Origin: Polytrichum commune
Lineage: Eukaryota; Streptophyta; Polytrichopsida; Polytrichales; Polytrichaceae
Direction: 5' to 3'
NCBI GenBank assembly: GCA_950295325.1
Contig: OX485809.1
Location: 19,344,001-19,408,000, forward strand
DNA: 64,000 nucleotides
In this document: one piece after another, positions 43,601 through 64,000 of the stretch
Numbering within the stretch: position 1 is the first letter of the stretch
How the letters are laid out: the number at the start of each line of letters is the position of its first letter
The notes under the pieces: generated by a model
What the model saw: only the letters and a program-made list of their open reading frames with translations
Database searches by the model: none
What the model was told of the DNA's origin: nothing
Made by a program: the position numbers and the translations under genes

Positions 43601-43685
43601 ATTTTTAAAGGTTGTACAAGAAACTGAGGACATGGATTTAAAGAAGGGTGACCCTGTTAGACTCAAGCAAAACTTGAACACACCG
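37631..43685 (+). pseudogene. CACTA second gene (TNPA-like), exons 1-6, one internal TGA
   Basis: In plant CACTA elements the second gene encodes a DNA-binding protein that recognises the subterminal motifs. I join 37631-37953, 38118-38385, 41241-42179, 42380-42697, 43085-43492 and 43611-43685; every junction is GT-AG and keeps frame. Exon 1 has an acidic stretch and YELQRQEHLRKNALKLQELG. Exon 3 carries the TNPA/Transposase_24-like core (PNRPLWLTCLRGHAQDIDF, VKERVDNTFEY). Exon 5 is lysine-rich. Exon 6 has KKGDPVRLK. A TGA at 42108-42110 (about codon 487) interrupts exon 3 while the frame stays open on both sides, so this looks like a recent nonsense change. The 19.9-kb insertion lies in the intron after exon 6. 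Intron 2 (2.85 kb) contains an inverted copy of repeat family A. Confidence 0.72.
39755..39985 (-). repeat. Dispersed repeat family A, copy 6 (inverted), inside CACTA intron
   Basis: On the minus strand the series GGTTGAAGTTCAGTACTTCA, GCTTTAGAGGAACCTATGCA, GAACATGTAACCAGTTGGAC, TTGATGTTGC and CAGGACAATG follows the order of copies 2-4. Since it sits in the CACTA element, this family was active after, or was carried by, that element. Confidence 0.7.
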
Positions 43686-43988: not shown

Positions 43989-44031
43989 ACACTATATTCG
44001 GTATTTGGAGACTTTTTGTTGATTATGAGAC
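43989..44031 (+). repeat. Left terminal inverted repeat of the 19.9-kb element
   Basis: ACACTATATTCG, then GGAGACTTTTTG, directly after the target duplication TGATTA at 43983-43988. Confidence 0.85.
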
Positions 44032-47000
44032 TATATAAGGATGCACATTTCAAAATTGGACCGGTAATGACGACTAAAAATCCCATATGTATAATGGTAT
44101 GCTACTATTATTATACATAAAGGCATGGAAGTGAACAAAAATGTGAGGCATACATGAAAATAGTTGCGTATGAAAGACAACTCGTTATGAATGGAAGGGA
44201 AGATGCGAAGAATGAATGGAAGTTGAATGAATTAATTGGAATTGAAATACAATTATAATGGAAATACCATCAATGTCTTGAGTAACTTGCAATAGCATAG
44301 AAAGTAAGCACTTAAATATGTTCTACACCTAAGCCCATTTAGGGAGTCCGTCCCACTAGTACGCTTCTAGTCACACTAGTCCGACCCACTATTTTTTTTT
44401 TGCGGCTAAGTCCTTTTTTTTGGCGGCCTCTGTGAACCCTTTGAGTGGTCCACCACTCTGCGGGATCACTTTTAGTTAGAATGTTAGCATTAAAAGTTAG
44501 AATTGATAGGGAATTTAGGAAAAATTAGTTCATTTAGCATTTAGCCTAGAAGAAGGAAGGTCAAAATGAAACTAAGTAGTGCTAGAAGATAGCAAAGTAG
44601 AAAAAATGTGCTAGCTAGTAAAAACAACTAGCTAAGCAAATATTAGTAGATGCTAGCTATTAAGCAAATGTTAGTAGATGCTAGCTGTAGTAAGTTTTTG
44701 CTATGTCTTTTAAAACCAAAAACCCAGGGAACTAAGGTCTCTAGGAAGACTGAGCTAGTGTCTATACGGGTTATTGTCACATTGGATTAAGGATTAAGTT
44801 AACAACTTAGGACCATTCTTACTTTACTTCTTTATTATTCCACTTGATCATTCATTCTTAAGGTTCATTTGTGCCTTTTCCGTAGTGAGTGAGTCCGTCC
44901 TATAATAAGGTAGTTTTTCTACGTCGCTATGGTTTTGACCTATGTTAGTCGTGAAGCTCAAAAGCTTGGCAAGTTGGCATGGCAATTAGTCAGGACGTCG
45001 TCCGGGGTAGCGTCTTTGAGTAACCACATCGTCTTGAGTATGCGGAAGATAAAACTTGCAAATTCCTTAATTAATTCCTTATTACCAACTTACCCGCCTC
45101 GTACATGTCTTCATGTGCCCAAGTCACCATCTTAGTCTTCAACCATCTGGTGACTCATCTCAACAGCCATTCACTTGTTAATACAAACATAATGCATTCA
45201 CAGCTAGGCGATGTTCTTCCTTAAGGCTTTAGTCCTCTATAAACTAATCAATCAACATACAAAGGGTAAGGTCTTACTCCAGTAAGATATTCTTTCCTTC
45301 AGGGGAAGGTACCGCCTTGACAGCCTATAGCCTGCCTCTAGCCCTTCCATCTTTCATGCTGGCCCTTGCCTAGCTTTCCTCTTCTTTCCTTCTCTGACAC
45401 ACTGACCAAAGACTGGAATTTTGGGCCACTCGCCCAGGCGATGGCCTCACTCTAGCCTCCCTGGCTTTCTCTCTTCCTAAGACTATTGCCCTTCTCGGCT
45501 GGCTACTAAACAGCCTCTTTAACTTCCCAGTCCTCTCTGTAGACCATGGCCATCATCTCTCTCTCGACTTGGCCTTTTGCCTGGTCCCACTGGTCTCGGC
45601 TACTAGCCTTTGGCTAGGACGATTGCCCTTCTTGCTTCTCGTCAAGCTTTGCCTAACTTGCCTTCTTCACGACAGGCTGTCTGTGTCCGTCAAATTCTCT
45701 CTCTCTCCCTCTCTCTCTGACCAGTTGCCTTGCCACTCTCTGGCCTTCTACTAGGCTATTGCCACATTTTGATTTGGCTCTCAGTCGCTTCTTGATTCTT
45801 CAGACCATTGCCTCTCACTCTATAACTTCTCAACCTTTTCCACTTTTCTTTAATCACCCACACCGAATCAGTCTTGCCTTGCTCAATTACAAACCTCTTC
45901 TCAGCCTATTTGCCTGATTTTGACATTACAATGCTAAGTCAGATTACTTGCTCAAACTCACTTTCCAAATATCACTCACGACATTACACATCACTTACTT
46001 CAACAATCCTCTTCACTCATAAGACAAACAATTACACATAATACTTCACTCATGATCATCTCATAATCATCCCATTAACACAAAAGAGATAAGTCCACTT
46101 CAGGGTCCAATTGTCTCAGCCCTATAACTTCCTAACATTGTCATTCCAAGCTTCCTGCTTGTCCAAGACTATTGCCTGGCTCAATCACTGAGCTACAGAC
46201 TTCTACGCCTATTGCTAAACTACGGTGAGACTACGTCAGATTTTGCTGTTTGCAAATAGCCTACCTTCTTTCCTGTCAGCCTCCTCCTTAGTGCCGAGAG
46301 AGACGACTAGGTGGTTAGCCGTCGTAACTAATTCTTGACGGAAATTGCCTGCATTCATCCCTCTGGATGGCTACTGACTGCCTATTGCCGGATGAAAGAC
46401 GTTAAAATTCAAGATTTGTCCTTTATAGACGGGTAATGGCCAAAAAATCGGTACTACACTAGCTAAGCAAGTGTTAGTTTATTAGTTAGTGTGAGGCACA
46501 CAAGACTATTGGAGGTGTTTTACGTAAGAAGATAAAATCGGCGTGAAGAATTTTGAAGACAAAAAAGAAAGAGAGCAAGGGGGATACTTGCCCACTTGCC
46601 CCCTTGCCAACTCGATGGCGGAAAAATTAGAAAGATTTCTAAAGGTTTTTTGTCGGAGCCACCTCGGCGAGAGGGTGGCAACCTCAACCGGGAAAACCCC
46701 CGAGCCAAAATTTCGGGAAAGGGTTTGAAAAATGGATCCGGTGGAGGAGGGGTCCAACCCTTTTGTGAGAGGGTTTAAAAACCCCTCCTTCCACCTTGTA
46801 GCTCTCTTTCTTTCTCTAGTTTTTGGGCGAAGCCCTGCTTCAATGTAGTTAGGAAAAAATCCTTTAGCATGTATTCTCAATGGTCTAAAAGAAAGACTTG
46901 AGAACCCCCTCTACTCTCTCTCTCCTAGTTAGGTTGTGTGTTTATTAACACACCAACAAAATTATTCCTTCTTTTGTAGAGGTAGGTTGGATGGTAGAGT

Positions 47001-49008
47001 TTTGAGTAGAGGCATTATAGACCTCATCTGCCAATGCCCTGAAGGCTTAGTTCAAAAGCTAGAACAAGATACTTATCATTTTTCTCTTAGAGAGATTTCA
47101 TATAGCTATCCATAGCCGTTTCCCATTTGTGATTTGGTTGAGATGACAATTAGTTATGGATTTTCAAAGATGGAGTAGAAAAACTGGGTGGTCTTGTGGG
47201 TAGCGGCTGCTGGATCAGACCTGCGAGCCCAATAGGAATTTTAATTCCAAGAAATTATATTTTTCCCAAGTAGAACTTTTGTGTAGCTTTCCAAAATGGC
47301 TTAGAACATTTGATTTGAGCATGATTTGAATTAGATTTGAATTGTGCAAGATGGGACACATAGTTTGAGAACTTTTGGTTGACTGCTGCATTACAGAGGA
47401 CCTGCTGGGTTCACTTCGGCTTACCTTTCTAATCACATATTTTTATCAAATACATATTTTTAATATCTCTCCAGGGTCATATAGAACGTTTGATTTGACT
47501 AAGATTTGAATTAGATATGAATTGTTGAAGGCGAGATACATAGTTCAAGCCTTCTTGATTGACTGCTGTGTTACAAGGAGTCCGCTGAATTTCTATTAGC
47601 TTAACCTGCTGATGTCATAATTTTTCTAGTTAGAGCTTGTTCATAGCTTTCCAATGGTATAAGGAAAGCCTAGATCCAAGTAGTAAGGAATGTGCTATGA
47701 ATTCTTGAAGTTAGAAGGTAGATAGGTGGGTTGGAAGGGTCGGTTGAATCGACCTCACACTTCCAACCCTCATAACTTTTGCATTTCTTATCCGATTAGA
47801 GTGATTTTTAGATCATTGGAAAGATAATTTGGTGCACTAAGTATAAATATTATGCTTAGGATTAAATTACAGGGCAGAATAACACTTTATATTTTAATTG
47901 TTAACTAAGGTACGCTTACTACCAAACTAGTTACAAAGAAGGAGGCAAGGTCGACGCTCGGAAAGTGGAGCAAGGAAGGAGGTAGCGGCTCGGCCTACAT
48001 CAAGCCCAAATCAACCGAGGAAAATTGAGGTAAATTAACTAACCTTAAGCCTTCCATTTAGGATTGGAGGGAGCACGGCTAAGGTACGCATCTCTAAACC
48101 CACTCACCTATCTCGTAAGGTCAAGTGGCTTGACCACTTGACCGCCAAGGGAGTACCCAATTCCATTGTTTTCGGGGCCCTTGGTATGTTTTGTGGTAGT
48201 AGCTTCATTTATTAGCAAGTTTCGTGTGTGGTAAGTCGGATTAATCACCGACACGACCACTCTGAATGTTGTTGGTGGAAAGGTGGGGTTAATGACCCGC
48301 GAATCCACTATTATGTTGTTGGCCCCATAGATTGGGAGTAATGGCCCCAATTTATGAAGATTGCGCAACAGGTTGAACCTACAGGTCGCCCGTCACCCTG
48401 GTCCCATTGAGTTGCATTTCGTGGTCTATCCAGTGTAAACACATTTAACAATCAAAACATACCAAATAAATCGTAAACCCTTGTTGGCAAGAGACCCGAG
48501 GTAAGGGGTGATGCCTAATATGTTAATGTAGTAAGTTAGGACGTGCAAACAAAAGTAAGTAATTAAGAAGGAATTTGTGTGAAGGGTGGGACTTAGGCCA
48601 AGTTCCCCCGCTTAGAAAACTAAATAGAACTAAATAAAGAAATAGGAAGAATTGAATGGTCCATCAAATTGTCGTTATTCCGTTCGTTGAGTTAGGGTGG
48701 TATGAGTCACACCCGGTTGGGTGTATCAGAACCATCCCAATTCACAAATTAGGATTGCCTTGGTTTCAAGGCTGGTGCGTCTGCGCGTAGAATAGGTTGT
48801 AGGTTAAGGTTAGAACTAGATATGAAATTCGTTAGTGGAGTTTAAAGCCACACTAGTAAAAAACTAAGGCCTAACCTCCGGAGGTACTACGACGCATATT
48901 TAATCTCCCTTAAAAATCTAACTACTCACGTTATACACCTATCATCCGGGTTTGGCTTGGGCGCCTGCAAATGCAGGCCACCTTCACCGAAGGGCTTGTG
49001 TGATACTT
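44032..49008. other. Left arm of the 19.9-kb element, no recognisable gene
   Basis: Contents: a short direct repeat at 44625-44695 (AAATRTTAGTAGATGCTAGCT), a pyrimidine-rich block at 45.3-45.95 kb, a small palindrome AAGTGGCTTGACCACTT at 48122, and the tandem duplication at 47270-47640. Words at 44636 and 46459 (ACTAGCTAAGCAA) recur about 1.8 kb apart. Open frames of up to 124 codons do not resemble known proteins. Part of this arm could be a nested, decayed retroelement. None of the TACGAACG palindromes occurs here. Confidence 0.5.
47270..47640 (+). repeat. Tandem duplication of about 200 bp
   Basis: Two units share TAGAACRTTTGATTTGA, GATTTGAATTAGAT, ATACATAGTT/ACACATAGTT, TTGACTGCTG, TTACA and CTTA(A)CC in the same order. 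Divergence is roughly a fifth. The function is unknown. Confidence 0.65.
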
Positions 49009-49709
49009 TTAGGCTCCCTCGAAAGGGGGTGGCCCAAAAGTACCACAACCGGCGTGGACAACAAGCCTTCTAAGGTAAGGCGCTAGCGTATCGACCAAAA
49101 ACGTGTCGTTCCTATCGCCGGTCCAAGTGGCGGGGAAGATGACGTTCCCCGGGGGGTTCAAGACGCTTTTGGTGGGGCTGTCGTCGACGAGGACGGTGTT
49201 CTCGGGGGTCGGCCACCACCCGTGGGGTACCCCCTGCAACCGGGGGATGCCCCGCCACAGTCTTGACCTCAGGACCTTGAGGAATTGTTGTCCTCCGCCA
49301 CGACCGCCGAACTTTGGAACCGGCAGACCCTTTTCGTCGAGCAATTCATCGCAATCCTCTTGGCCGAGGATGAGGCAAGGGCTCGGAAGATCGCGGAAGA
49401 GGAAGTCGACGATTGGCTCGGTGTTCTCCATGACCATGGAGCTCCACACAATGACGTGAGCTACATCGAGCACCTCTCGAAGGAAGTCACGCAGGCCGGA
49501 ACGGGCGCGGACAACCTTGCGGTTAATGAGAGTGTCGAGCTCTCCGTCGTAGTCCCTTTCGTCGGGGTGACGGAAGGGACGCGTGAGGACCCGGGGGATG
49601 TGTTCGGTGTGACACAACACCCCGTTCAGGTCGAACACGACGAACGGTTTGTTTCGGGTAAGACGTCCACTGGTCGAGGGTTTCCGACCTATCTCCGGGG
49701 GATCCTGTG
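49009..49709 (-). CDS. FCP1/SCP-like (NLI-interacting factor) phosphatase-domain protein
   Basis: HAD-type phosphatases of this family dephosphorylate the RNA polymerase II C-terminal tail in host cells. The frame from 49709 to 49009 encodes about 233 residues. Visible motifs are KPFVVFDLNGVLCH (motif I, with Asn in place of the second Asp of DxDG), a hydrophobic VIVWSSM segment (motif II) and ENTVLVDDSPTKSVLNPPGN (the DD motif), ending with DTLAPYLRRL. The change DLNGV for DLDGT may reduce activity, although from memory some plant members have it. A GT-AG-type acceptor (TTAATCACAG) marks 49709 as the probable exon start and an upstream exon with the ATG was not found. Three TACGAACG palindromes begin 110 bp upstream. 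Its role in a transposon is unknown; it could be cargo. Confidence 0.75.
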
Positions 49710-50141
49710 ATTAACAACTCGACTAGTTTAATTCTATGATCTAATAAACAACATTGCATTGAGGAAAAGACGATTATGCGAGGAAAATAGTGCAAGGAGA
49801 ATGTGGTCAAGTGCAGACTTGCGAACGAGCGTTCGTGAATGAAGGCTGGGGTGGCGCATCATTTACGAACGCTCGTTCGTGAACGCGGATAGAAGCACAT
49901 GTACGAACGCTCGTTCGTGAAGGAGGGTGAAAGTGGGCGTGAAAGTGTAATGATGCGCATGAACATACATAATACAAGATGCGATACGATATAATAAGTT
50001 TGGGAGATGCGACGCAGAGATCATCTGCTCATATATTAATTCGGTGAATATTTACAATTGTCTCACGTGATAATTTTTCACAGTTTCCTATGGCAAATAC
50101 ATGCCGTGTTCTACAAAATTTCTCGGGCTAAGGGTCAAAAT

Positions 50142-53100
50142 TTATCGGACTAAGGGTCCACGTAGAGAAGGGTCCTCGCACGCCTCGTGATGCTGATGGA
50201 CAGGAACCGCCAAGAACACAACGCGCATGGGTTAGTGGTTACGAACGCGCGTTCGTCAAATGAGTGGTATTCTCAGAGGAGAGTTACCTCGTCATCGGGG
50301 GGAGGGGCAGCGGCGCTGGACCGAGCAGTTCCCTCCTCTTCGATTAACGAACGCGCGTTCGTAATCCCCATTGGGCCAGCCGCCTCTGTCTCCATGGCGT
50401 CTGTGGCACGCTCCGACTGTGACGCCTGGGTCTGCACAATGTGATCCGCGTCGTCGTCGTCGTCGTCGTCATCTCCGCCCAGGTCGAGAGTGTCCATGCG
50501 GACATCCTCCATCTCCGCGGATGGATGCCGTTCCAGGTCAGGGCTCTCAACGTCCATTCCTTGGACAGCTGCCGCGTCATTGGGGCTCCCCTGCGTTTCC
50601 TCCACAATGATCATGTCAGTGTGTTGCGCAGATTCATCGCCCTGCCTATGCACTACCCTCGGGACGACTGTCAAAGAGGCGGTGGCAGTGACTGAGGCCA
50701 GTCCTACCCTTGGAGGGGGAGGGGTTAGGACTGCTGGACCTGAAGATTCACGAACGCGCGTTCGTAAATCTTCGTCCTCGCGTATGGCAGCCCTTATCGC
50801 ATCGTCCGAGTTGAAGGGGGTGGCAGTCAATTGAAGGGGCGGAGGACTCCCAGCTGGCGTTGGATGTGGTGTTGGTGGGTGCGAAGGTCCTCCGGGGAAC
50901 AGGCCTGGAAGGGGGGTATGGGAGGGGTATCCTCCAGGGAAGGGGTAAGGCTGTTGTGCTGGCGCCGAGAAGCTCTGCATATTTCTGAGCATCTCAAATA
51001 TGGCGTCCGTCTTTGCTGCGGACTCCCGCAGCGCCTCCTGCATGTGGGCCATATTTCTTGCACTCTCCTCTGCCGCAGCCGCCATTTCCTCCTTCATTTT
51101 TTGCTCTAGCTTGGCATTCAGCTCGGCAACCGTCAACGCCTCCTCCTTCACACGCTTGTTCTTGTCGTAATCCACCCCCAGCTCCGCCATGATATCCATG
51201 TCCCCTTCGTCCTCGTCGGACACCTCGATGATTGCTCCCTCCGGCAACTCCACGTATGGCGTCTTCTTCATCCTCCTCCTCGTGTTCCGGAAGTGGTCCA
51301 AGGATGGACGCGAGCGTTGGTCGAGGAGGTCGAGGGTCTCCATCCTCGGAACCACGACGGGCCTGGGAGACACTGACGTCGAACAGCCGCCAGGTGTGCC
51401 GAAGGGTTCCGCACCCGACACTCTAGCGGGGAGGACATCCTGGGTTGTCCCAGCCGAGGATCATGTATAGCCCCCCGGTGTCCCTTGGGGGTCAGACGGG
51501 TGACCCGCTGGCGCCAACATCCGTAAAGGAGTGATGTTGAACGACTGCAAGATGGCGTCCACGTCCACGTCCACGGAGGGGGCGGGCTCGTCCTCGTCTG
51601 TCTCCAAGCCCGGCATGCCTTCGTCGACAGGCATGCTGAAGTCCTCCCTGGGGACACACATGTCATCGAGGTCCATTGTGGACGCTTTCACCCTGTGGAC
51701 CTGGTATTCATCCTCGTCTTGGGCATCAACGTAGTTATTGACGACCAACCCCAGCATCTGTACCAACGTTCCAAACATGTCAGCATATACGAACGTGCGT
51801 TCGTAAACATCAACATTGAGACAAGGCCAGATCAACGCAAAGGGAAAAAATGCCACAACTATTATAACATTTGAATCAATGACAATTACGAACGAGCGTT
51901 CGTAAATCTAAGAATGACAGCTTACCATGGCCGCGTATATGAACTTGCTGCCTCCAAAGATGTTGTAGACGGTCTCTCCACTGATTGCCAAACTCTGCAA
52001 CACTGACACGTAGAACTCCAACCTAAGCTCCAACGCGGGGAAAACCGTGTACAGTGTCTCCTGCAACAGTTCCTTGGGAGGGGGGTGAGGGATGTTGTAT
52101 ATCTTCTTGAAAGTACTGTTTGCCTTCACAGGCGCTCTCCCATTTCTGAGAGCATTGTACGTTAAGAAGATCAAGCTGACAGCTCCCACCTGCTTGTTGC
52201 CCCTGGCCTCGTTGATGGCCATGATCCTTTCCGTTTTTGCAGGCACGTAGGTGCAGTGGTAGATGCTGTATTCAAATTTGATGGTATTTTCGTACAGCTC
52301 AGTGACAATGGATAGCTTCTCCTGTTCCACTATCCAAAGCCATACGTGAGGCTCCCTCATTTCAGGCGATCTGTAGTCTTGAAACTTTGCCATGAAAGGG
52401 TTGTAGAAGGGAAAATCCTTTGCCCCTTGCCTCGCACCTCCTGGGATCCCCCTGAAATCAATCAGGGCAAATGGGCAACCCCTGCGGTCCTCCCTCACCT
52501 CGGCCCTGCTGATGGTGCCGTCCCACTTAGAAAAAGTGGTCCTCTCCAGCCCGGTGGTTACCAAACAAAACCTGGCCACTCCCTCGAATGTGGCCCTCCG
52601 CTTCCTCTCCAAAAACTTTATATACAACTCCACCTCCTGGGGATCTGTCTCTGCTTTCTTGGTCCGCTTGTTCCCCTTCAGCTTCAAGACGGAGGCGTGT
52701 TCCTTAACTAGCCTACGCATGGAAGAGCCGTTGATGTTATACCCGACCTTGAACTCCTTCCATCCAGCCCAGTTGATGTCCCCGTCGGCCTGGAAGAGTT
52801 TGTACTCCGGGACTAGTGCGCCCAACTCCCTCATTGCGTTGGTCTTCAACTTGCGATGTTTGCACCACTCCTTGATGGAGTACGTTCCGGGCCTGTGCTT
52901 TGGCCTCTTCAAAAAAATCTTCGGGTAGGGGATTGTTCTCCCGACGGTGTTCCCAAGAGCATGAACTGCACATCTCTGCAATTCCGACTCCGTCAACCCC
53001 TGAAGCGGCCTAAAAAATTCCCTCAGCAGCGGAGGCGCTTCCCCAGTCTTCTCCTGATTATATTTTTCTTCAGTGTCGGGGTTGACGAGATCCCCCGCAC

Positions 53101-54663
53101 TGTGAGCATCAAAAAATTGGGTCCACAAATCCCAGGTGTCTCTGTTGCAACAAATAAGCCGGAGCTCACCCTTTAGCTCGAGCACTGACTTCGTTGAAGT
53201 GGACTTCATGTCGATGGAAGAGAATTTGTCCACCATCGCATCGCAAAACGCCTGCATTAGAAAGGAATGTCATCGGTCAATCAAATACGAACGCACATTC
53301 GTAAATAAAATGATCAGGAATGTTCTAAAGGAACCTGAGAATTACGAACGCTCGTTCGTAAACTTACCTTCCATTGTGGAGACTGGTTTTTCGCATTCTC
53401 CCTCTCCTTTGGTGGGCACCCGTGTGCCACCCACACATCTCTCGCAGCCACTATGTTTGCTGCCCATGATGCCTCAAACGCTTTGATCTTATTCCCAGAA
53501 TTTAAAAATGTCGAAATTTTCCGGAGTTTGTCCCAGTCGTCTGACCACACCAGGAACACCTTCCAGTAGCGCAGGTCCCCCTTCAGCTCATGCTGGAAAT
53601 TATCATCCTTGAGGATGATCTGCGATGCCTCCAGGCTGTGCTGTCCATCAATAATCCAGAACTCCCCATTCTGGATTCTTGCCCAATCTTTCTCCGTGGG
53701 ACGGGAAGTGAAACCCTTTGGCATAACGCACACAGTTTGCCTATCCCACTTCACGTTATTCATCAAGTTGTTGATTTGCCACTTCACACCTCCGCTTTCA
53801 CGTGACCTCACCACCCACTTGTTGGGGGATTTCTCGCATTTGAAGCAGTCCACGTTGAAGGTGAAGTGCCATCCCATGGGCCAGCAATCCTTCGAGTAAT
53901 TGTTGAAGTCGCGAAGGATACGAGTCGCCTTTGCCGCATCAGGGTTTTCCCCCTTCTTCAAAGGGGTCGGCATGACAGGCGGCGAGTTGACCTCAGCTGT
54001 CTCCGTGACACTAGACTTCTCCATATCGTCCCGAGTTCTTTTAGATGGCGTGGAGTGTCTGCTTGGCCCCTCTGACAATCTACTAGTTGAAGGCACTGGC
54101 CGCGGCGCACTTCTAGAACCTCCTGCTCCGGATGCAGTAGGTTTTTTGGGACTCTTCTTCTTCTTGTTGGCCTCCACGACGGCATTGTTATACTTGGACA
54201 TATTTAGGGCCAGTGCAGTCAACTTCCTAGCTGTCCAATGCTGGCTGAGGCTGTACTTCGTGAAAAGGTTCACGAGGTCGAAATGCTTGGCATCCTCTAC
54301 AACATTATTCTGTGCGTATGTATGGGAGAAAGGGTGCCTCCTGAAGTCCAGCAGGAGGTTGATGTGGTCTTTTTTGTTTTTCAAATCCAAGATAACAAAA
54401 TCACCCTGTGCCTCTATGGATTCTATCTCCCATGTCTTCATCTGCACCCACTGCTCCGGCTGGTCTGGCCTTGTCTCCAACTCGTATGTGAATCTCAGGG
54501 CGAACAATCCACCCTCGATTTTCTCCGGGAGCGCCGTCCACTCCCCCATGAAGTCATCTTTGGGGACGTAATTATCGTTCCCATTGTCATCTGTCACTGA
54601 CTCCGGAAGCCGATCCAACTGAACCGCGAACATTTCGATTGCGCTCCTTACTGGTCTAGCCAT
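50142..54663 (-). pseudogene. ParB/DGQHR-like protein gene, four exons, one internal TGA
   Basis: I join 54663-53368, 53251-51926, 51757-50288 and 50192-50142. All introns are GT-AG and phase 0, totalling 1381 codons. Residues about 160-240 are a basic, proline/serine-rich linker. Near residue 335 is FWIIDGQHSLEASQIIL followed by WKVFLVWSDDWDKLRKIS and FLNSGN. This pattern (DGQH, hydrophobic strand, then F-x-N) is that of the ParB/sulfiredoxin and DGQHR group; the usual Arg after DGQH is Ser. Exon 2 is rich in basic and aromatic residues and unassigned. Exon 3 has an acidic start, a coiled-coil-like AELNAKLEQKMKEEM segment, a proline-rich stretch and an Asp run. A TGA at 51463-51461 (about codon 973) breaks an otherwise open frame. 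The start follows a possible acceptor, so an upstream exon may exist. Confidence 0.6.
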
Positions 54664-55077
54664 CTGCAATGTAACAGACACATTCAGAATTGCATTTACG
54701 AACGCGCGTTCGTTACTGGCATTTGCAGGTCGTCAATAAATTATTTATTATTGGCAAGACATCTGTTGGTTCTTGTTTACGAACGTTCGTTCGCAAATTT
54801 GGTTTGATTTCCAAGGTGTTATTCATTTTCAATAAATACGAACGCGCGGTCGTATTTGAGTGCTGTGATGTTCATATGGCGTAATCAAAAGGTGTAGGGT
54901 TCGTTTTTATTTTCATTTTTTGGGCTCATTTTTATTAGTTTTTGGGTACACATATTTGTGTCCATGCCTTTGTGTAGATTTACGAACGCGCGTTCGCAAA
55001 TCTTGGGTGTGTTTGGATCCCTGGTTACGAACGATCGTTCGTAAATCTAGGATATTGATGTGATTCAGTGTTTGTTC

Positions 55078-55350
55078 ACGAACGGACGTTCGCAAATACA
55101 AGATGTTCCTTATTTAATCAATTACGAACGCACGTTCGTAAAAGTAGAAGGTGAGCGCGTATTTTACGAACGCACGTTCGGAAAATTAGAAGGTGAGTGG
55201 GTATTTTACGAACGCACGTTCGTAAAGGTGGAAAGTGAGTGGGTATTTTACGAACGCACGTTCGTAAAGGTAGAAGGTGAGTGGGTATTTTACGAACGCA
55301 CGTTCGTAAAAGTAGAAGGTGAGTGCGTATTTTACGAACGTGCGTTTGTA
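55078..55350. repeat. 42-bp tandem array, each unit holding one palindrome
   Basis: Palindromes start at 55124, 55166, 55208, 55250, 55292 and 55334, exactly 42 bp apart, joined by a spacer close to GTAGAAGGTGAGTGGGTAT. Because 42 is a multiple of three, both strands show repetitive open frames (YERTFVKVEGEWVF-type units) that I regard as by-products. Five of the six central pairs are CA. Confidence 0.95.
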
Positions 55351-55914
55351 AAAGTAAAGGGCTTGGTGTATTAGATGTATAAACGCCACATTTACGAACG
55401 ATCGTTCATAAATGTGGTCGTCTGTGTATGATAATAAATGTTTTCCGTACATATACGGATATGTATACATACGTATGTATGTATGGGTTTATGAATGTTG
55501 CTATCGACATTGCTTGGATTTCTGCCTGCAACTCTTGATCAGAATGATGAAACACAAAGTGAAATATGTAATGACAACAACATTGAGATTCAGTGATTAA
55601 GAATTCATAATGAAGGGGAAAGTCCTAATTCATACAAAACATGACAAAGCTCATAATGCATAAAACATGACACATGGAATTCAACAAAGAACAATTTCAG
55701 ATTGCAAAGAAGTGTTTTGAAAAGGAAACCTGTACTCACATTGAATTGTTGCAAACCCAAAACCTGCTGCCTGCTACTCAGAAATCCAGAAACCTCACAA
55801 ATGCACTGATTTCGCTTTCAAATGCAATTTCTACCCTCGCTCCTTTCTCACACTCTCAAGCCTTCAGAATTTATTTACAAATCCTACAAATATTCTGATG
55901 TAAACACAACTCAC

Positions 55915-56130
55915 AAGCTTTCTAAAACTCTCAAGCTCTCAAGCTTTTTGCAACACTCAACCTCTCAAGCTTTCTAAAACTCTCAAGCTTTCTAAAACAC
56001 TCAACCTCTCAAGCTTTCTAAAACACTCAACCTCTCAAGCTTTCTAAAACACTCAACCTCTCAAGCTTTCTAAAACTCTAAACCTCTCAAGCTTTCCAAA
56101 ACTCTCAACCTTCTCAAGATTTCTACAAAT
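55915..56130. repeat. Minisatellite, about 25-bp unit (CTCAAGCTTTCTAAAACACT)
   Basis: About eight to nine units of CTCAAGCTTTCTAAAACACT plus CAACC, with small variations. Confidence 0.9.
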
Positions 56131-56589
56131 ATCAACCTCTCAAGCGATCCTACTCTCAAGCTTCTGACAATGCGCGCCAAGAATAAACATAAAATGCGGC
56201 TATACAAATGGCCAGGGCTTCGCCGCACCTAAGCTCTCCCCTCCTCCTCTGCTCCAAATGACAAATGAGGAGGAGAGGAAGAGGCGCGGGGAGGTAGCCG
56301 GCACCGCTAGGGTTTCCTGGCGGCTGCCACGTGGCTGACAGCCACTGGCCAGGGCTGGGATGGGGATGCGGATGGGGATGGGGATGGGGGAGGGGAGGGG
56401 ATGGATGGGAGGGGAATGGGGATAGGGAGGGATGAGGGTTTACGAATTAAGAAATACGAAATGGTGGGAGCTTAGTTCGGGGACATGAATTTTACATTCC
56501 GTATCCCCTGAATACCTCTACAGTTGGATTCCTTGTAAACATATTTTAGAAAAGTATGTTCAGTTAATTTGTACAACACAATGCATGTC

Positions 56590-56815
56590 ATTTAGTAGGT
56601 TTTCGATGAAGAATCCATCCCAATGTGTGTATGGTGTTTTGCAAAATAGAGTTTTCATGAACCACACATCCTTAAAGTTGTTCAATGGTTCCTCAAACAA
56701 ATTTTACATACATAAAGGACGCATTTTGAATTGTGGAGAGGGGCTATCAGATTCTCCTCAAGAGGTGGGGGAAAATTCATTTTTCAATACGATGTCATTA
56801 ATTTCATGAGGTGTT
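56590..56815 (+). repeat. Dispersed repeat family D, copy 1 (copy 2 at 57685-57910)
   Basis: Both copies share GTGTRTATGGTGTTTT, TTTTCATGRACMA, GTTCAATGGTTCCT, a TAAAGGAC word, TTGTGGMGAG and GGTGG(R)GGAAATTC in the same order, about 1.1 kb apart. The family is unknown. Confidence 0.65.
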
Positions 56816-57489
56816 AGCTTGACCCACCCTTAATATGATATTTAGTATTAGATACTCTAAATACGAACGCATAGTACACTAAGGGCATGTTTAGACTTGG
56901 GGCCAAGGCCATTGTGAACAAAGGCCAATATGTCCCATGTGGCATGCAAATGGGCCCCAAAGGCCATTAATAAGAAAGTAACCTAACTCCATTCATTGCT
57001 TTCATGTGTAAACCTATTTAGGTGGGGTTGGGGCCATTTGGAGGTTGCAATTATGAGAGGGTTATGAGAGGTTCCAACGTACTCATGAACTATTCTATGG
57101 ATAATAATTAAAGTATAATAAATTTAGAATTTCTCCCCTCCTACTCAATGCTCAAAGAATAAACTACTATAAGCGAATAAAAGCTCTAACAATGGCCTCA
57201 ACAAGAGGGAAAGAGTCCACAATGTTGGGAGCTCTCTTTTCCAAGGCTTGAGGCCATTGTCATGATGAATAAAATAATTTATTTGTGATTGGCCCCAACT
57301 CATGGTGTAAACTTGAAGAGGAAAATCCTAGCCTTTCTACCAATGAGAGGCGTGGATTTCTTTCACCCCAACCCATTTTTGAGCCTTGACTCCAACTCTA
57401 AACCCGTCCTAAGTATCACTAACGATCTAAACCCTAAGCCCGCAAACCACATATTAGACAACTTTCACAAACCATATACACTAACCCCA

Positions 57490-57520
57490 AACCCCAAACC
57501 CTAAACCCTAACCCTACATC
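57490..57520. repeat. Interstitial telomere-like CCCTAAA run
   Basis: AAACCCTAAACCCTAACCCT, about three plant telomere units; shorter ones occur at 37442-37455 and 37960-37972. Too short to suggest a chromosome end. Confidence 0.7.
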
Positions 57521-58924
57521 TTTTTATTTTACCAACCCTTCTTAGGAGGTCAAGTCATTTAATTAGTTGTCGACTTGAACTAACAAACGAATACTAGTGC
57601 CATCAACTTTAAATTTCACCAATGATCAATTGCATTTAAACTTGTAGTTCATAATATGGTCCGATGTTTGGCGAGCCTCAAGTGTAGGGGGTGGATTCAA
57701 ATGAAAAATCCACCCGCAAGCATGTGTATATGGTGTTTTAAAATATAATTTTTTCATGGACAATATGTCTTTCAAGGTGTTCAATGGTTCCTTAAAAAAA
57801 AATTATTGGATAAAGGACTCAATTTCATATTGTGGCGAGCCTGCGCTATCCTAAACCTTTACAAAAGGTGGAGGAAATTCTATTTCTCATAGGACGTCAA
57901 ACACATGATATTAATAATTGTAAGTGTGACTTCACGTAGGCATAGTTTCAATTCTTATCATTATCGTATGCACCGTTCCAAAGTGATTGATCATTTCCAA
58001 TCATGCCATTTTAATTCATTATTTTCAAACCTAGTGTTACATTTGAATGAAGACCTTACCTACATATATTGGGTATGATTACTTCAAAATGTCCTCAATT
58101 TACCTAGTACAAACCATTATGGATTAAGCGACTTTTTATTGGTATTCATGCAGTTGGTGACCATATTACGGGCATTTTTTTTATGTAAATCATATGATAC
58201 CTACAATTTTAGGGGCTTCCACAACATGTTTTTAGCTACTCTTACCTCATTGTGTGTGTGAATATGTATTACCCTAAACCCTTCATCACTTTATTAGGTA
58301 TAATCAATCATCAATTAACTTGGACTTCACACCTTAGTTGCAAATCATTTAAATTCAATGTTAACCATAAACCTATATAGACATTATAAATCTAATATTA
58401 TATATATGTGTATATATAATCTAATATTATATTATATACAATATGAAATTCATATATACATATAAATATAGACATATATCCACGTGAGACCTTGGTGGCA
58501 ACTAAGGTGTGCGACCGATTGACATATTTACAATATGTTGCGTGCATGCAAGACATGTTCCATACATAATGCTATTTATTTATTCCGCATGGATGGAATG
58601 ACATATTGTTAGGTCAAAGTAGGCGGCGGGAATCCGCTTTTTAAATAGCATCCAAGGGATTTTGAACCATCAGGGGGGAGGTACTTAAAGCTCTTCCCCC
58701 CACATCAGAGCTCTTTTCTGCGGCACAACCAAGTGTGCGCTCCACAGACCTGACTGGAACGAGCACAAACCATTTTCTTGTGCGCCCACCCTATACCTCC
58801 CAGGTACACAATAGGTTGCACATACCCGCATATACCGCCGCAAATACCGGACTTTTACGAACGCACGTTCGTAAAGATGACTTGGTAGCGACATGTGATG
58901 CGAGTGGTTTAGACATGTAGTTTA

Positions 58925-59420
58925 GACGAGTGGTATAGACGAGTGGTTCAGACATGTGATGCGAGTGGTTTACGAACGTGCGTTCGTAAGTAGAGCATTA
59001 GACATACTCAGCGTAGATTTACTTACAGCTAGTCATAGGCACAAAATGTTCAATTATATACGAACGTGCGTTCGTATATATTTCCTTCCAGATACAGGCG
59101 CACGTAAGTTGTTGTGATGCGAGTGGTTTACGAACATGCGTTCGTAAGTAGAGCATTGGACATACTCAGCGTAGATTTACTTACAGGTAGTCATAGGCAT
59201 GAAAATATTCAATTATATACGAACGTGCGTTCGTATATATTTCCTTCCAGATACAGGCGCACGTAAGTTGTTGTGATGCGAGTGGTTTACGAACGTGCGT
59301 TCGTAAGTAGAGCATTGGACATACTCAGCGTAGATTTACTTACAGGTAGTCATAGGCACGAAAATGTTCAATTATATACGAACGTGCATTCGTATATATA
59401 ACGTGCGTTCGTAAGTAGAG
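58925..59420 (+). repeat. About 159-bp tandem repeat, each unit holding two palindromes
   Basis: Three units carry GATGCGAGTGG, palindrome, AAGTAGAGCATT, GACATACTCAGCGTAGATTT, ACTTACAGGTAGTCATAGGC, TGTTCAATTATAT, palindrome, ATATTTCCTTCCAGATACAG. Palindromes fall at 58972/59060, 59130/59219 and 59289/59378, so the spacing alternates between about 70 and 89 bp. All central pairs in the block are TG. A decayed fourth unit reaches 59500. Confidence 0.92.
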
Positions 59421-60323
59421 CATTCGATAATACTCCACGTTGACCTACTTATAGGTAGTCGTGGGCGCTAAAATGTTCAATGATATACGAACGTGCGTTC
59501 GTTTATTTTCCTCCTAACCCTCAAAGACACCTACGCTCCCATGACTCTGTTATGTCCAACTGAACATATGATGGTCTGGTATTCACGAACGTGCGTTCAT
59601 AAATATCAATTGATATTATTTTGCCATTATACAGAAACATCCGTTCATTTATGCACATGCCTCCTACTACTACGCTATAGATGTTTCTTCTGATGGGTCA
59701 ACATTTTTACAAACACGGTTAGGGCTAGAACACATGATTGATCGTTCGTATGCATACGCCCATATGTTTCGGCTAGGACTTACGAACGATCGTTCGTATA
59801 CATACACCCTTGAGTTTAGGCTCTACCTTGGGTTCGGTCGTTCCTAGATACACACCCGTCAAAGACATGCCCTTCAATTACGATGCTTGTTGCATGTGGA
59901 TAATGATGCAGGTGCATTTTAGGTGCTCCTGAGCAATGCACGTTGCTTATCCCTTTTACAATTCATTGTTTGTTGGGTTGATGTTCTCGTCCGCGCGTTC
60001 GTGAATATATGTGCGTATGCTCTCCTTTGTTGGTTGGCAACACTTCCCATGTTTTATTAGCAAATCGACCCAAAACCCTTCACGGTTAATATGTACCACA
60101 ATTGCATGCCGTTGTCCATTGGTGTGTGACTCCCACGTAGTATTTGCTTGTCATGGCGTTGTTTTCGAACGCACGTTCGTCTTCATATGTGAGGTCCCCC
60201 AACGGTGCCGCGAGAGTTGTTTGTGTTTTTTTAGCCATATATCTACACAGCTCTCGTTTTCGCTTTTGTGTGCATTGCGGTGCTTCTTGTTTTGGTCATT
60301 GATTAGTGGTTTGCTTAGGTTGG

Positions 60324-63300
60324 ATGGCGCTGCCCGTGGCATATAGTTCATTGGAGTTGTCCACAATTTCTTCCTCCTTCGATGGTGAGTGTGAACTTTC
60401 TTCCCCTTCGGCGGGTTGTAATGGTCTGCCAAACGTGATGGGGGAGTTTGTGGATACATCCTCCCATGAATCTTTAGAAGTGCACGAACAATCTCTACAT
60501 TCCAGGGATGACCACGATGACATTCCGTTGTGTGCCGGTTTCGGGAGGGAGCAATGGGTTGGCCTTGATGTCGTCCTACTCAACGACATTGGTGTCCCTG
60601 TGGCAGATGGCATATGTAGAAACTCTGATCCCCGTGATTGTGTGGATGCCAACCCCCTTGGTCCGAACGATGTTGGTGTGTGCATCTTGAATTCATTGCT
60701 TCCGCTTGAGGTCCCGGTGACATGGAGATTTTCCTTGCGTCGATGGCCTTTTTGTCGGGTTCTCCATGACGGAGTGAGCTTGTTGGACCATGAGCGGCGC
60801 CATAAGCAAACACAATTAGCTTTGTTGGCCAAAATACGTCCTCGCAAAGGCCTACGCAAATATGATTCGAACCGTGTGCCTCGAGGAGATAAGGAGCGTC
60901 GACGGGATCACATATTGGGAGACGAATTTATCCGTCTTGTGTCCGCCAAAGACTGTTGCTATCGGAAATGTTGCCAGTTTTTCCCACGGGAGAAAATTAA
61001 ATCCCTACGTCAAGAGATGTGGCTGGCCGATTTCCGTATGAGATCGGCAAAGAAACTCGAGGTCCATAGAAATGTGCACATTGACACCCATGGGCATAAG
61101 GTGGTCACACTTGAGAATGTGGATGTGTGTTGTACCGCGTGGTATACCATCCATGCCATGTCAAAGGCTGATTTTTATAGGTTTCAAAATTATTCATCGT
61201 TGGGTCGCCGCTCACGATTTCATGGAAATTCGGGCACAAAGAAACCTCGGGAGGCTACACTCCAAGCCTCCGCGACACTCTCCACCATCATAGTCCCATT
61301 GGCCGATGCAATGCCCCACAAGACGAGGACATTGTCGTCAGGGGAGAAAGTTGTACAAATGGTGTTGCCCACAGGTACAAAATGGAAGAACATATTAACG
61401 GACATTAACGAAGTGGGTCGCATAGCGGGATGTGGTCCCATTTCTTTGTCCAAGTTGAGTGTAATTAAAAACCAACAGTTTGCTGAATACATTTTGAAGA
61501 GACCTGGGGATAAGTTCGCTAGGTGTACGACGTGTGAAAAATACAAAGGTCTTCGAGACGCCCACCCCATAGGCACCGAATCCCACTCCAGACACCAAGC
61601 AAAATATATTGAACATGTCAACAACCAAGAGGCTCACCGTCAAGATTACTACAAGAACCGTGCTCTATCCATAATGAGGCCTACAGAGGTTCTAACAATC
61701 ATCCATGACAAAATGGACCACGCCAAGACCGCATGCCCTTGTTATGCACGGAAAATAAAGGCCACGGATGGACTCTTCAAGTTGCCCGTAGCTGTCACAG
61801 GTTTGTAGGAAATCACAAATATGTGTTCAAATTCTATCCAATTTTACTAGATGTGTTTGCGTTAGGTTTCAACTTCACACATCCGTTTAGGGTTGTTGTT
61901 GTTATTGTTGTCATTCATGGATCGTTTGTTTTTTCCCAGGGATGATTGCCCACGGACATGGAGACGTTAAGTATGCCCATTATGGTCTGGATTTTTACCC
62001 TGGCGATGCTAACCACACGGTGGGATCATTTGCAAAACTCTTGCGCGATCTTGAGAAGCCACCGGTACATTCATCACGTGCATTGTTTGATGGTTGTGGA
62101 ACGACACCCCTTTACGAAGCACTGCTTGCGGGGAAGGAGGTTTGTATGTCGTCATTGCCGGAGCCACCCGGAGAACCTCTTTGTGCGAAACCTTTGCCTC
62201 CAACTCTCCATGTTCAACTTGATAATTGTGCGAAGGACAACAAATGTCGATATGTATTTTGTTTTTGGTCCTTGCTTGTGGCGAAAGGAATCTTCAAGGA
62301 GGTGTTTGTGTCTTTCTTGATGGTGGGATACACACACGATGACATTGATGCGTCTTTCGGACGGTGGAGCATGAAGTTGCATGAAGAAGATTTTCCAACC
62401 ATACCACTTCTTATGAAATCGTATATGGATTTGGACCATATGCCGGTAATTCCGCACATGATTGAGGAAGTACCAGATTTCAAGGCCTTCATCAAGCCAT
62501 ACATGTTGAAGGGAGGGGACCGTTTGGTGGGACATACCAAAGCACAACAATTCTGATTCTTTATAAGGGATGATGGTCTCCCGGCCATGCAATTTAAGCT
62601 TTTGTGCACATCTCCTAATTGGGGCCCGGATGATGGTATACTCATATGGCGTCAAGACAATGATGGGAAATGTTTGCTCCCGGATGGGGATCCAAAGCCT
62701 TGCAAACCCGACCCCATGAGGAATGGGCCGGAAATCATCAAAGGCATATCCGGATTCATTGAATATTGGAAAGAGTTGTGTGAGGAGGACATCACTAGAC
62801 GTGTTAGAGATACTCATGAACCTTTTATTGCGTATTGGGATCGCATTCGCTCGGCCCTAATGACACTTGGTGGCGACACCCGTACAACTTTAACACAAGG
62901 ATTTTGGCCACAAAGCCGTTTAACGGTTGTCGAGTCCGACACCATGTTTTTTAGCAATGGAGACGTTCGTGAAGAGTTCGCAATGGACGAGCATTACGTT
63001 GGCCCTGCCCGAGATCGACCGGCACCGTCGTTTCGTGTAGGTGTTGATTGCCATGAAGGTTATTTGGTCCTCGTACGAGCAGGGGATGAGGAGCATCCCA
63101 AGCCAATTTGGTTGGTGAAAGCATTGTCTTCACCCAATTTTGTTCGAACTAGCCCCAACTTTCGTCAAATTGAGGTGGAATATTGTCGTCCAAGCACTAA
63201 AGACCAAAACGTGCTACGCACTTATTTAGGTTGGGACACCAAAAAGAATTTTAAGTGGACAGTGGACTCAGCGTACACACCGGTTTGGATAAACACGGAT

Positions 63301-63459
63301 ACTATACTTTGTGCTTGGAAGCCGCGCAAAGGTTCCAAAACAGAAACAATGACCATCCCCCAAAAACATATAGATTTTGCCAAAGACAACTTGGCACGTA
63401 TTGCAGCTGCGGTGAATGACGCCGTGAATGGATATGAAGCGGAAGATGGAGATGTGTAA
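60324..63459 (+). pseudogene. DUF7869-type protein (likely transposase), two exons, one internal TGA
   Basis: I join 60324-61800 to 61940-63459 across a GT-AG intron (phase 1), giving 999 codons. After a variable N-terminus comes a cysteine-containing region (DCCYRKCCQFF, VDVCCTAWYTIHAMSKADFY), then ARCTTCEKYKGLRDAH and the family signature HDKMDHAKTACP. After the splice junction are GHGDVKYAHYGL, HVQLDNCAKDNKCRYVFCF and VGYTHDDIDASFGRW, the acidic-residue motifs expected of an RNase H-like core. The last 290 residues are unassigned. A TGA at 62554-62556 (about codon 698) interrupts the frame, with open sequence on both sides. I know the family from memory as DUF7869, multicopy in plants and animals; its transposase role is inference. 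A palindrome lies 145 bp upstream of the ATG, and many more lie further upstream. Confidence 0.72.
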
Positions 63460-63821
63460 ACATAACATATTAGGTGGGAGTTAATGGCGAAAAATATGGG
63501 CGCTTAGTAGACTTGGTTTTTATTAGACTTAGTGGACTTGTCACACTCCATTGTTGTATACGTTTGGGATGTGCCATCCAAATTCATAAGAGCCTTACTT
63601 ATGGGATGCGCACCCCAAATTCTATAATGACATAAACCAATTGTTTTCTCAGAGTTGATTGTTATTTTCCACAAAGAGCTCACGTTTTCATTTTAATTGA
63701 AATTCTCTATTTTTAGTAATAAGAATATGCTTTACGTGCGAAATTTCAAATCGTCATGTTCTTGATGTTCCCAATATTCCGTATGCCCACAATATTGGCA
63801 TCCCAAACCATGGGCATATTT
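63460..63821. other. Right subterminal region of the 19.9-kb element
   Basis: AT-rich 3' flank of the DUF7869-type gene up to the inverted terminus. GGGATGYGC(A/C)(C/T)CC words recur near 63568 and 63604, and CCATGGGCAT/GCCCACAAT words near 63785-63820. There is no gene. Confidence 0.5.
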
Positions 63822-63864
63822 TATTTTGAGACTTTCAAAAGTCTCCGATTAACGAATATAGTGT
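63822..63864 (-). repeat. Right terminal inverted repeat of the 19.9-kb element
   Basis: Read on the minus strand it starts ACACTATATTCG and continues to GGAGACTTTTGAAAGTCTC. The second half is itself a small palindrome (GAGACTTT...AAAGTCTC). TGATTA follows at 63865-63870. Confidence 0.85.
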
Positions 63865-63873
63865 TGATTATAG

Positions 63874-64000
63874 GTTGTACAAGAAGGTGAGGACCTGGAG
63901 TTCAAGAAGGGTGATCCTGTGAGACTCAAGGGACTTTTAGAAGGGGAGGAGGATAAAGTTGTGGCACTCGGGAAAGTGCAGAATGTAGCTGGTGCTTCTC
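63874..64000 (+). CDS. CACTA second gene, exon 7 (continues past window)
   Basis: The exon opens after TTGATTATAG and encodes VVQEGEDLEFKKGDPVRL, then a GLLEGEEDKVVALGKV segment, open to the window edge. The first part is a near copy of exon 6 (43611-43685), showing a tandem exon duplication. The rest has the G-x-P-V-x-L ... V-V-A-x-G pattern of the DUF8039-like C-terminal domain found in plant CACTA second genes. It is separated from exon 6 only by intron sequence plus the 19.9-kb insertion, so it belongs to the same gene. Confidence 0.75.

Follow-up and report, generated by a model that had tools for sequence, protein, structure and literature searches.

What does an 18-bp palindrome do that is repeated dozens of times inside a single mobile-looking element? 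The question is raised by a 64,000-nucleotide stretch of Polytrichum commune contig OX485809.1 (hereafter the window, numbered from its first base), the right part of which carries a transposon-like element with an FCP1-like open reading frame (ORF), a large gene whose product is predicted to combine PH-like, ParB-type and methyltransferase-like domains, and a DUF7869 gene. A first-pass annotation of the window reported 34 copies of the palindrome confined to 49.82–60.18 kb, and this count was reproduced exactly: with up to two mismatches, TACGAACGNNCGTTCGTA gave 34 matches, all inside nt 49,820–60,181 and none in the remainder of the 64 kb; over 100 dinucleotide shuffles the mean was 0.01 matches and the maximum one. 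The answer we favour, with moderate confidence, is that the element uses the palindromes in cis as self-recognition sites, bound by an element-encoded homodimer that is most likely the large protein.

Written as arms, the palindrome is TACGAACG-NN-CGTTCGTA, with 8-bp arms and a 2-bp centre. Its nearly fixed core is ACGAACG-NN-CGTTCGT, with weaker conservation out to about TTTACGAACG-NN-CGTTCGTAAA, and the half-sites ACGAACG/CGTTCGT occur 65 times in the window, 60 of them within 49.8–60.2 kb. The centre had been described as freely variable, which does not hold, as 24 of the 34 copies have a pyrimidine-purine step there (TG 10, CA 8 and CG 6; the others are CT 3, AT 3, AG 2, TT 1 and GA 1). 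The 34 palindromes are not one single tandem array: 25 have 10-bp flanks with no more than 70% mutual similarity, while the nine that fail this filter are part of repeated stretches. Some copies lie within a 42-bp tandem (nt 55,123–55,350) and others within a 159-bp repeat (nt 58,885–59,360). Twenty window copies carry a total of 24 arm substitutions, six of the CpG-decay type, and because none of the 24 is compensated in the opposite arm, it is the sequence of the palindrome that has been kept and not hairpin pairing.

Relatives of the large protein carry palindromes of the same design. Three protein searches returned 126 homologues (P0001, the window itself, not counted), many of them ORFs from public genomes and metagenomes whose reading frame continues into an intron or an upstream stretch; when back-translated, these run-ons spell palindromes with 8-bp arms and a 2-bp centre. 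In clade A, which includes the window, the three frames of the window palindrome appear in the run-ons as YER[STPA]FV, RTxVR or TNxRS, and several run-ons end at the point where TAA would come from the palindrome (a stop that we appended). The run-ons of P0012, which is 36% identical to window exon 1 in the alignment, read VWVGRPK, LGRSTQ and VWVDRPK, all frames of TTTGGGTCG-NN-CGACCCAAA. All 65,536 possible 8-bp arms were tested against the run-ons of 122 homologues (3,213 residues; the other four, P0114, P0122, P0124 and P0127, left out) and taken greedily. Arm TTGGGTCG had 42 run-on matches in 29 proteins and arm TACGAACG, that of the window's clade, had 24 in 16 proteins; further arms were TTCGGGCG and TTCGGTCG with five matches each, and TACGGACG and TTGGGCCG with four each. 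None of the six had a match in 50,692 core (exon) residues, and in three non-palindromic control scans no arm reached three matches. All six arms end in CG at the centre, and the bases outside this CG vary. Four proteins (P0055, P0056, P0057 and P0078) fit TACGGACG as well as TACGAACG, and resemble clade C. We make no claim for the two last arms of the scan (two matches each, with 66 and 2 ties). A separate set of patterns gave 51 flank matches in 2,019 residues versus none in 32,344 core residues; one further, loose pattern, RPx[VG]R, was unspecific (four flank and seven core matches) and was dropped.

The first-pass annotation had stated that its interpretation would be refuted if other copies of the element lacked the motif. 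The motif is present: an exact translated copy occurs in 12 of the 18 clade-A relatives. Among the six without one, P0007 and P0126 have near-matches, the run-ons of P0069, P0072 and P0074 are nine residues or shorter, and P0071 has a 15-residue run-on without a palindrome. For the distant homologues P0073 and P0076–P0083 (24–32% identity) the scan gave no palindrome, most of their run-ons being too short to tell. Protein-guided searches for the relatives' DNA gave no confirmed hit.

The sequence of the palindrome follows the protein clade. On a tree of exon-2 sequences (79 tips; exon-2 cores shorter than 250 residues left out) the 30 labelled tips, comprising 18 of B type, eight of A (including the window) and four of C, need only two changes of motif, as few as three states allow; with the labels shuffled 10,000 times on the same tree, at least six were needed (mean 10.9). 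The other 49 tips were kept out of the parsimony count, 43 being unlabelled, three fitting A or C, and three showing the loose pattern. Just behind the donor of intron 1, a palindrome is found in 5/5 clade-A and 15/23 clade-B rows, each in its own clade's sequence, a count that was made on run-ons of at least 10 residues with a hand-made pattern list and that includes some close relatives (P0089–P0091). The window likewise has a palindrome just behind this donor, at nt 53,343, directly following its GTAAGT.

Within the element the sites are mostly non-coding (32 of 34): the 7,762 bp of coding sequence hold two and the 6,689 bp of non-coding sequence, including a site-free 3.4 kb, hold 32 (Fisher p = 1e-8). 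Copies had been placed upstream of all three genes, and copies do stand 5' of each (three, 13 and 11 palindromes at the FCP1-like ORF, the large gene and the DUF7869 gene, respectively), but four more lie in the two introns of the large gene, two in its third exon and one downstream of it. From left to right, the FCP1-like ORF (nt 49,009–49,638, minus strand; NIF/NLI-interacting phosphatase domain, Pfam PF03031, E = 1.3e-13) is preceded on its 5' side by palindromes at nt 49,820, 49,864 and 49,902 (spanning nt 49,820–49,919), and a single copy (nt 50,240–50,257) stands downstream of the large gene. The latter is read on the minus strand. Its exon 3 (nt 50,273–51,757), low-complexity and coiled, with limits set by splice signals and frame, has palindromes at nt 50,346 (translated as ITNARSL) and, in another frame, at nt 50,749 (translated as DLRTRVRES). 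Intron 2 (nt 51,758–51,925) has copies at nt 51,788 and 51,887. Exon 2 (nt 51,926–53,251) specifies a helical region and, according to the predicted model and its fold matches, a beta-class amino-methyltransferase-like domain (model residues 223–442). Intron 1 (nt 53,252–53,367) has a copy at nt 53,286 besides that at the donor, and exon 1 (nt 53,368–54,663) specifies the predicted PH-like and ParB-type domains (the latter at model residues 267–395). The 13-palindrome array 5' of the start codon (nt 54,697–55,410) has six copies in the 42-bp tandem, and the 11-palindrome array 5' of the DUF7869 gene (nt 58,856–60,181) has several in the 159-bp repeat. The DUF7869 gene itself (nt 60,306–63,459, plus strand; Pfam PF25273, E = 3.6e-35) has at least two exons. 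Between the two arrays lies the palindrome-free 3.4 kb (nt 55,441–58,840; CpG observed/expected ratio (o/e) 0.49), which is possibly a later insertion; a CTCTCAAGCTTTCTAAAA-type tandem is present in it near 55.9–56.1 kb. TTGCAG directly precedes the ATG of the large gene (nt 54,655–54,670), and in several relatives the start is preceded by a glutamine codon (run-ons ending LQ, TQ or PQ before M). A 5' untranslated region intron may end at this start codon, in which case the 13-palindrome array would be intronic.

Which protein might read these sites? Exons 1 and 2 of the large gene join in frame, and the homologues P0002 and P0012 read through both. In fold models built from alignments of 39 and 59 rows of homologues, the exon-1 half shows a ParB N-terminal fold (Foldseek E = 5.7e-4) and the exon-2 half a methyltransferase fold (Foldseek E = 6.6e-3). 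Residues D265, R267, P270 and K436 are present in all 59 rows of the exon-2 alignment. The D339-G340-Q341-H342-S343 region is also conserved in the large protein, and a CTP clamp function may reside there. Catalytic motif IV of beta-class DNA amino-methyltransferases is [DNS]PP[YFW]. At its expected place, as judged from fold and order, 59/59 rows have D-[FLWY]-R-x-x-P.

Because the sites are palindromic, conserved in sequence, clade-specific and internal to the element, an element-encoded homodimer that recognises its own DNA is the probable reader. The large protein is the leading candidate, since relatives with the ParB-type fold act from operators or parS sites and the methyltransferase-like domain could mark or shield DNA. 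As a dimer it would load at the palindromes, with the methyltransferase-like part serving to mark or shield the element and so to leave promoters and introns accessible or to regulate the element's genes. With a family-specific palindrome, each protein would act on its own relatives, and the outcome could be anti-silencing, as with VANC of the Arabidopsis VANDAL transposons, or gene control. The first-pass annotation had proposed the site of a dimeric protein under selection. This core of its interpretation is supported, and by more than the annotation had available, through the clade-specific palindromes of the relatives and the uncompensated substitutions. The binder, namely the large protein and not the DUF7869 product, and the outcome of anti-silencing or self-regulation are what we infer from the analysis. 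We put forward more tentatively, as a possibility, a parS- or operator-like address system, in which a ParB-type clamp that bears a methyltransferase-like domain would load at the family's palindromes, spread, mark the element as self and escape silencing, with no effect on other families; the palindrome would change along with its protein, the motif being rewritten at many places in one lineage.

Several points weigh against the favoured explanation. The relatives' motifs rest on back-translation, and RTxVR fits both TACGAACG and TACGGACG. Labels are available for 30 of the 79 tips, and some rows are closely related. Co-variation with the motif is expected of every gene of an element, so that the large protein is not singled out, and within clade B the residues that track the sub-motif are confounded by descent, with many columns differing. 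The Foldseek E-values of both halves are modest, and sequence-profile searches of Pfam, PHROGs and PDB sequences with either half gave nothing credible. Methyltransferase activity is doubtful because the usual motif IV is lacking. The window copy appears partly decayed and may be inactive, with two in-frame TGA codons, one in exon 3 of the large gene (nt 51,461–51,463, minus strand) and one in the DUF7869 gene (nt 62,554–62,556, plus strand), the frame continuing after each. CpG retention is mixed and is no demonstration of hypomethylation: once the palindromes are masked, two site-bearing spacers have CpG o/e values of 1.17 and 0.97 and the array upstream of the large gene has 0.60, while the introns of that gene have 0.44–0.48 and its exons 0.62–0.80. 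In the flank (nt 1–48,000) the value is 0.56, with TpG and CpA at about 1.2, and the sequence was read as eukaryotic because of this CpG loss and the presence of introns.

Among the alternatives, an unlikely one is that the palindromes are transposition sites bound by the DUF7869 product, possibly a transposase, and so represent internal versions of subterminal repeats. Eleven sites do stand 5' of its gene, and a transposase, too, would be expected to evolve together with the sites that it binds. The sites are, however, spread over introns, spacers and a coding exon and are not near ends, and no ends were found in the stretches searched. In addition, a transposase role for DUF7869 is a candidate role only, the name being absent from the open-access literature searched. 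The search for ends compared nt 44,001–49,800 with nt 63,461–63,985 and gave no convincing terminal inverted repeats or target-site duplications: there were 15 pairs of 16 bp, each with three mismatches and a duplication of at most 3 bp, and one control region gave six. The right end of the element may lie beyond the window. A 59-bp direct repeat, 88% identical, flanks the region (nt 43,609–43,667 and 63,872–63,930) and reads as a piece of coding sequence; neither it nor a 29-bp inverted repeat nearby was taken as an end. Further to the left, nt 1,265–33,222 contain ORFs that, judged by eye, resemble hAT-, Harbinger-, Ty3- and CACTA-type mobile elements.

It is improbable that the palindrome is a selfish short repeat that copies itself into tolerant sites and does nothing for the element. 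Such a repeat would fit the preference for non-coding sequence and the low-complexity part of an exon, but not a palindrome sequence that follows the protein clade and that occupies the same donor position with a different sequence in two clades. Very improbable, too, is that the sites are operators of a host transcription factor used for expression of the element: they cluster 5' of genes, yet also occur in introns and coding sequence, and the six or so palindromes of related elements are better explained by a co-evolving element protein. RNA hairpins acting in splicing or RNA stability would account for the palindrome that many relatives have right after the intron-1 donor, but have hardly any probability, as no arm substitution is compensated, all copies keep one sequence rather than mere pairing, and many sites are in spacers. 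Chance or plain tandem duplication, to which the nine copies in repeated stretches might point, is refuted by the shuffled expectation, the 25 copies with unlike flanks and the same design in relatives, and its probability is negligible.

In exact scans of viral contigs, TTTACGAACGNNCGTTCGTAAA and TTTGGGTCGNNCGACCCAAA were found in no stretch and TACGAACGNNCGTTCGTA in seven, with one site each; in prokaryotic genomes TACGAACGNNCGTTCGTA was found in 57 stretches, 56 with one site and one (L019) with two. The 64 loci examined had at most three near-matches each, and none matched the window genes (tblastn) or DNA (blastn). Five contigs of one Verrucomicrobiales metagenome-assembled genome, JAEUHD01 (L008, L019, L023, L030 and L037), carry TACGAACGNNCGTTCGTA with no match to the window genes, and L019, L023 and L030 have a GC content of 0.65–0.68; this is probably an unrelated bacterial repeat.

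Several known systems resemble parts of the arrangement proposed here. The subterminal repeats of CACTA and hAT elements are concentrated near the ends; the present sites are internal to genes and intronic, in an element whose ends were not located. Fungal transposons carry TET/JBP dioxygenases as accessory proteins (PMC12730594), which is likewise a DNA-modification gene in an accessory role, although the enzyme is different and the parts of that report available to us mention no cognate sites. In bacteria, Bce_0392 is described as a ParB domain fused to a DNA methylase (PMC5512222), and a 'DNA methylase' of Mycobacterium phage Vincenzo is among the BFVD fold matches of the exon-1 model; the likeness to such fusions is one of predicted fold, with no credible profile match in Pfam, PHROGs or PDB sequences. 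KorB with its OB operators on plasmid RK2, and ParB-parS, combine a ParB fold with operators near and far from promoters, a CTP clamp and sliding, as described in the accessible text of PMC11790492. The large protein would share with them a predicted ParB fold and short operators on its own replicon. As far as that text goes, those proteins are of bacterial plasmids, lack a methyltransferase domain and have a demonstrated CTP clamp, and the palindromes of the present element greatly outnumber those operators and differ from family to family.

Closest in protein type are the ParB-methyltransferase accessory proteins of algal transposons, such as Ectocarpus Sola1-1_Ec32 and green and red algal cases, which have been suggested to bind and modify their own element (excerpts of PMC12477816). 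These also unite ParB-type and amino-methyltransferase domains in one transposon-carried protein, a likeness to the Ectocarpus protein that is one of description and not of sequence comparison, and the neighbouring gene here is DUF7869 instead of Sola1. The parts of that paper at hand name no target sites, whereas here family-specific palindromes accompany the protein. Judged by those parts, the kind of protein is already known, and the candidate cognate, clade-specific palindromes appear to be what is new; our search of the open-access literature found no report of such palindromes or of their change with protein clade. Each protein clade is now paired with a candidate target, which makes the suggestion of self-binding directly testable, and the matched sets of protein and palindrome are a natural data set for changes of DNA-binding specificity.

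Closest in logic is VANC, an element-encoded protein for which anti-silencing has been shown and whose motif, repeated in non-coding parts of its element, differs by family, being YAGTATTAY for VANC21 and AGTTGTCC/AGTTGTAC for VANC6 (available portions of PMC5735166 and PMC10398659). On that account both systems have a short motif repeated, partly in tandem, in the non-coding parts of their own element, and related families with different motifs, which here (in the back-translated relatives) follow the protein clade. They differ in that the present motif is an 18–22 bp palindrome with a 2-bp centre and the candidate protein is ParB-methyltransferase-like, and it is for VANC that those portions describe demethylation. 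VANC is not known to have ParB or methyltransferase domains. If the large protein does bind the palindromes, the element would join VANC as a second example of self-recognition that is specific to a family and evolves together with its sites, built on a different protein scaffold.

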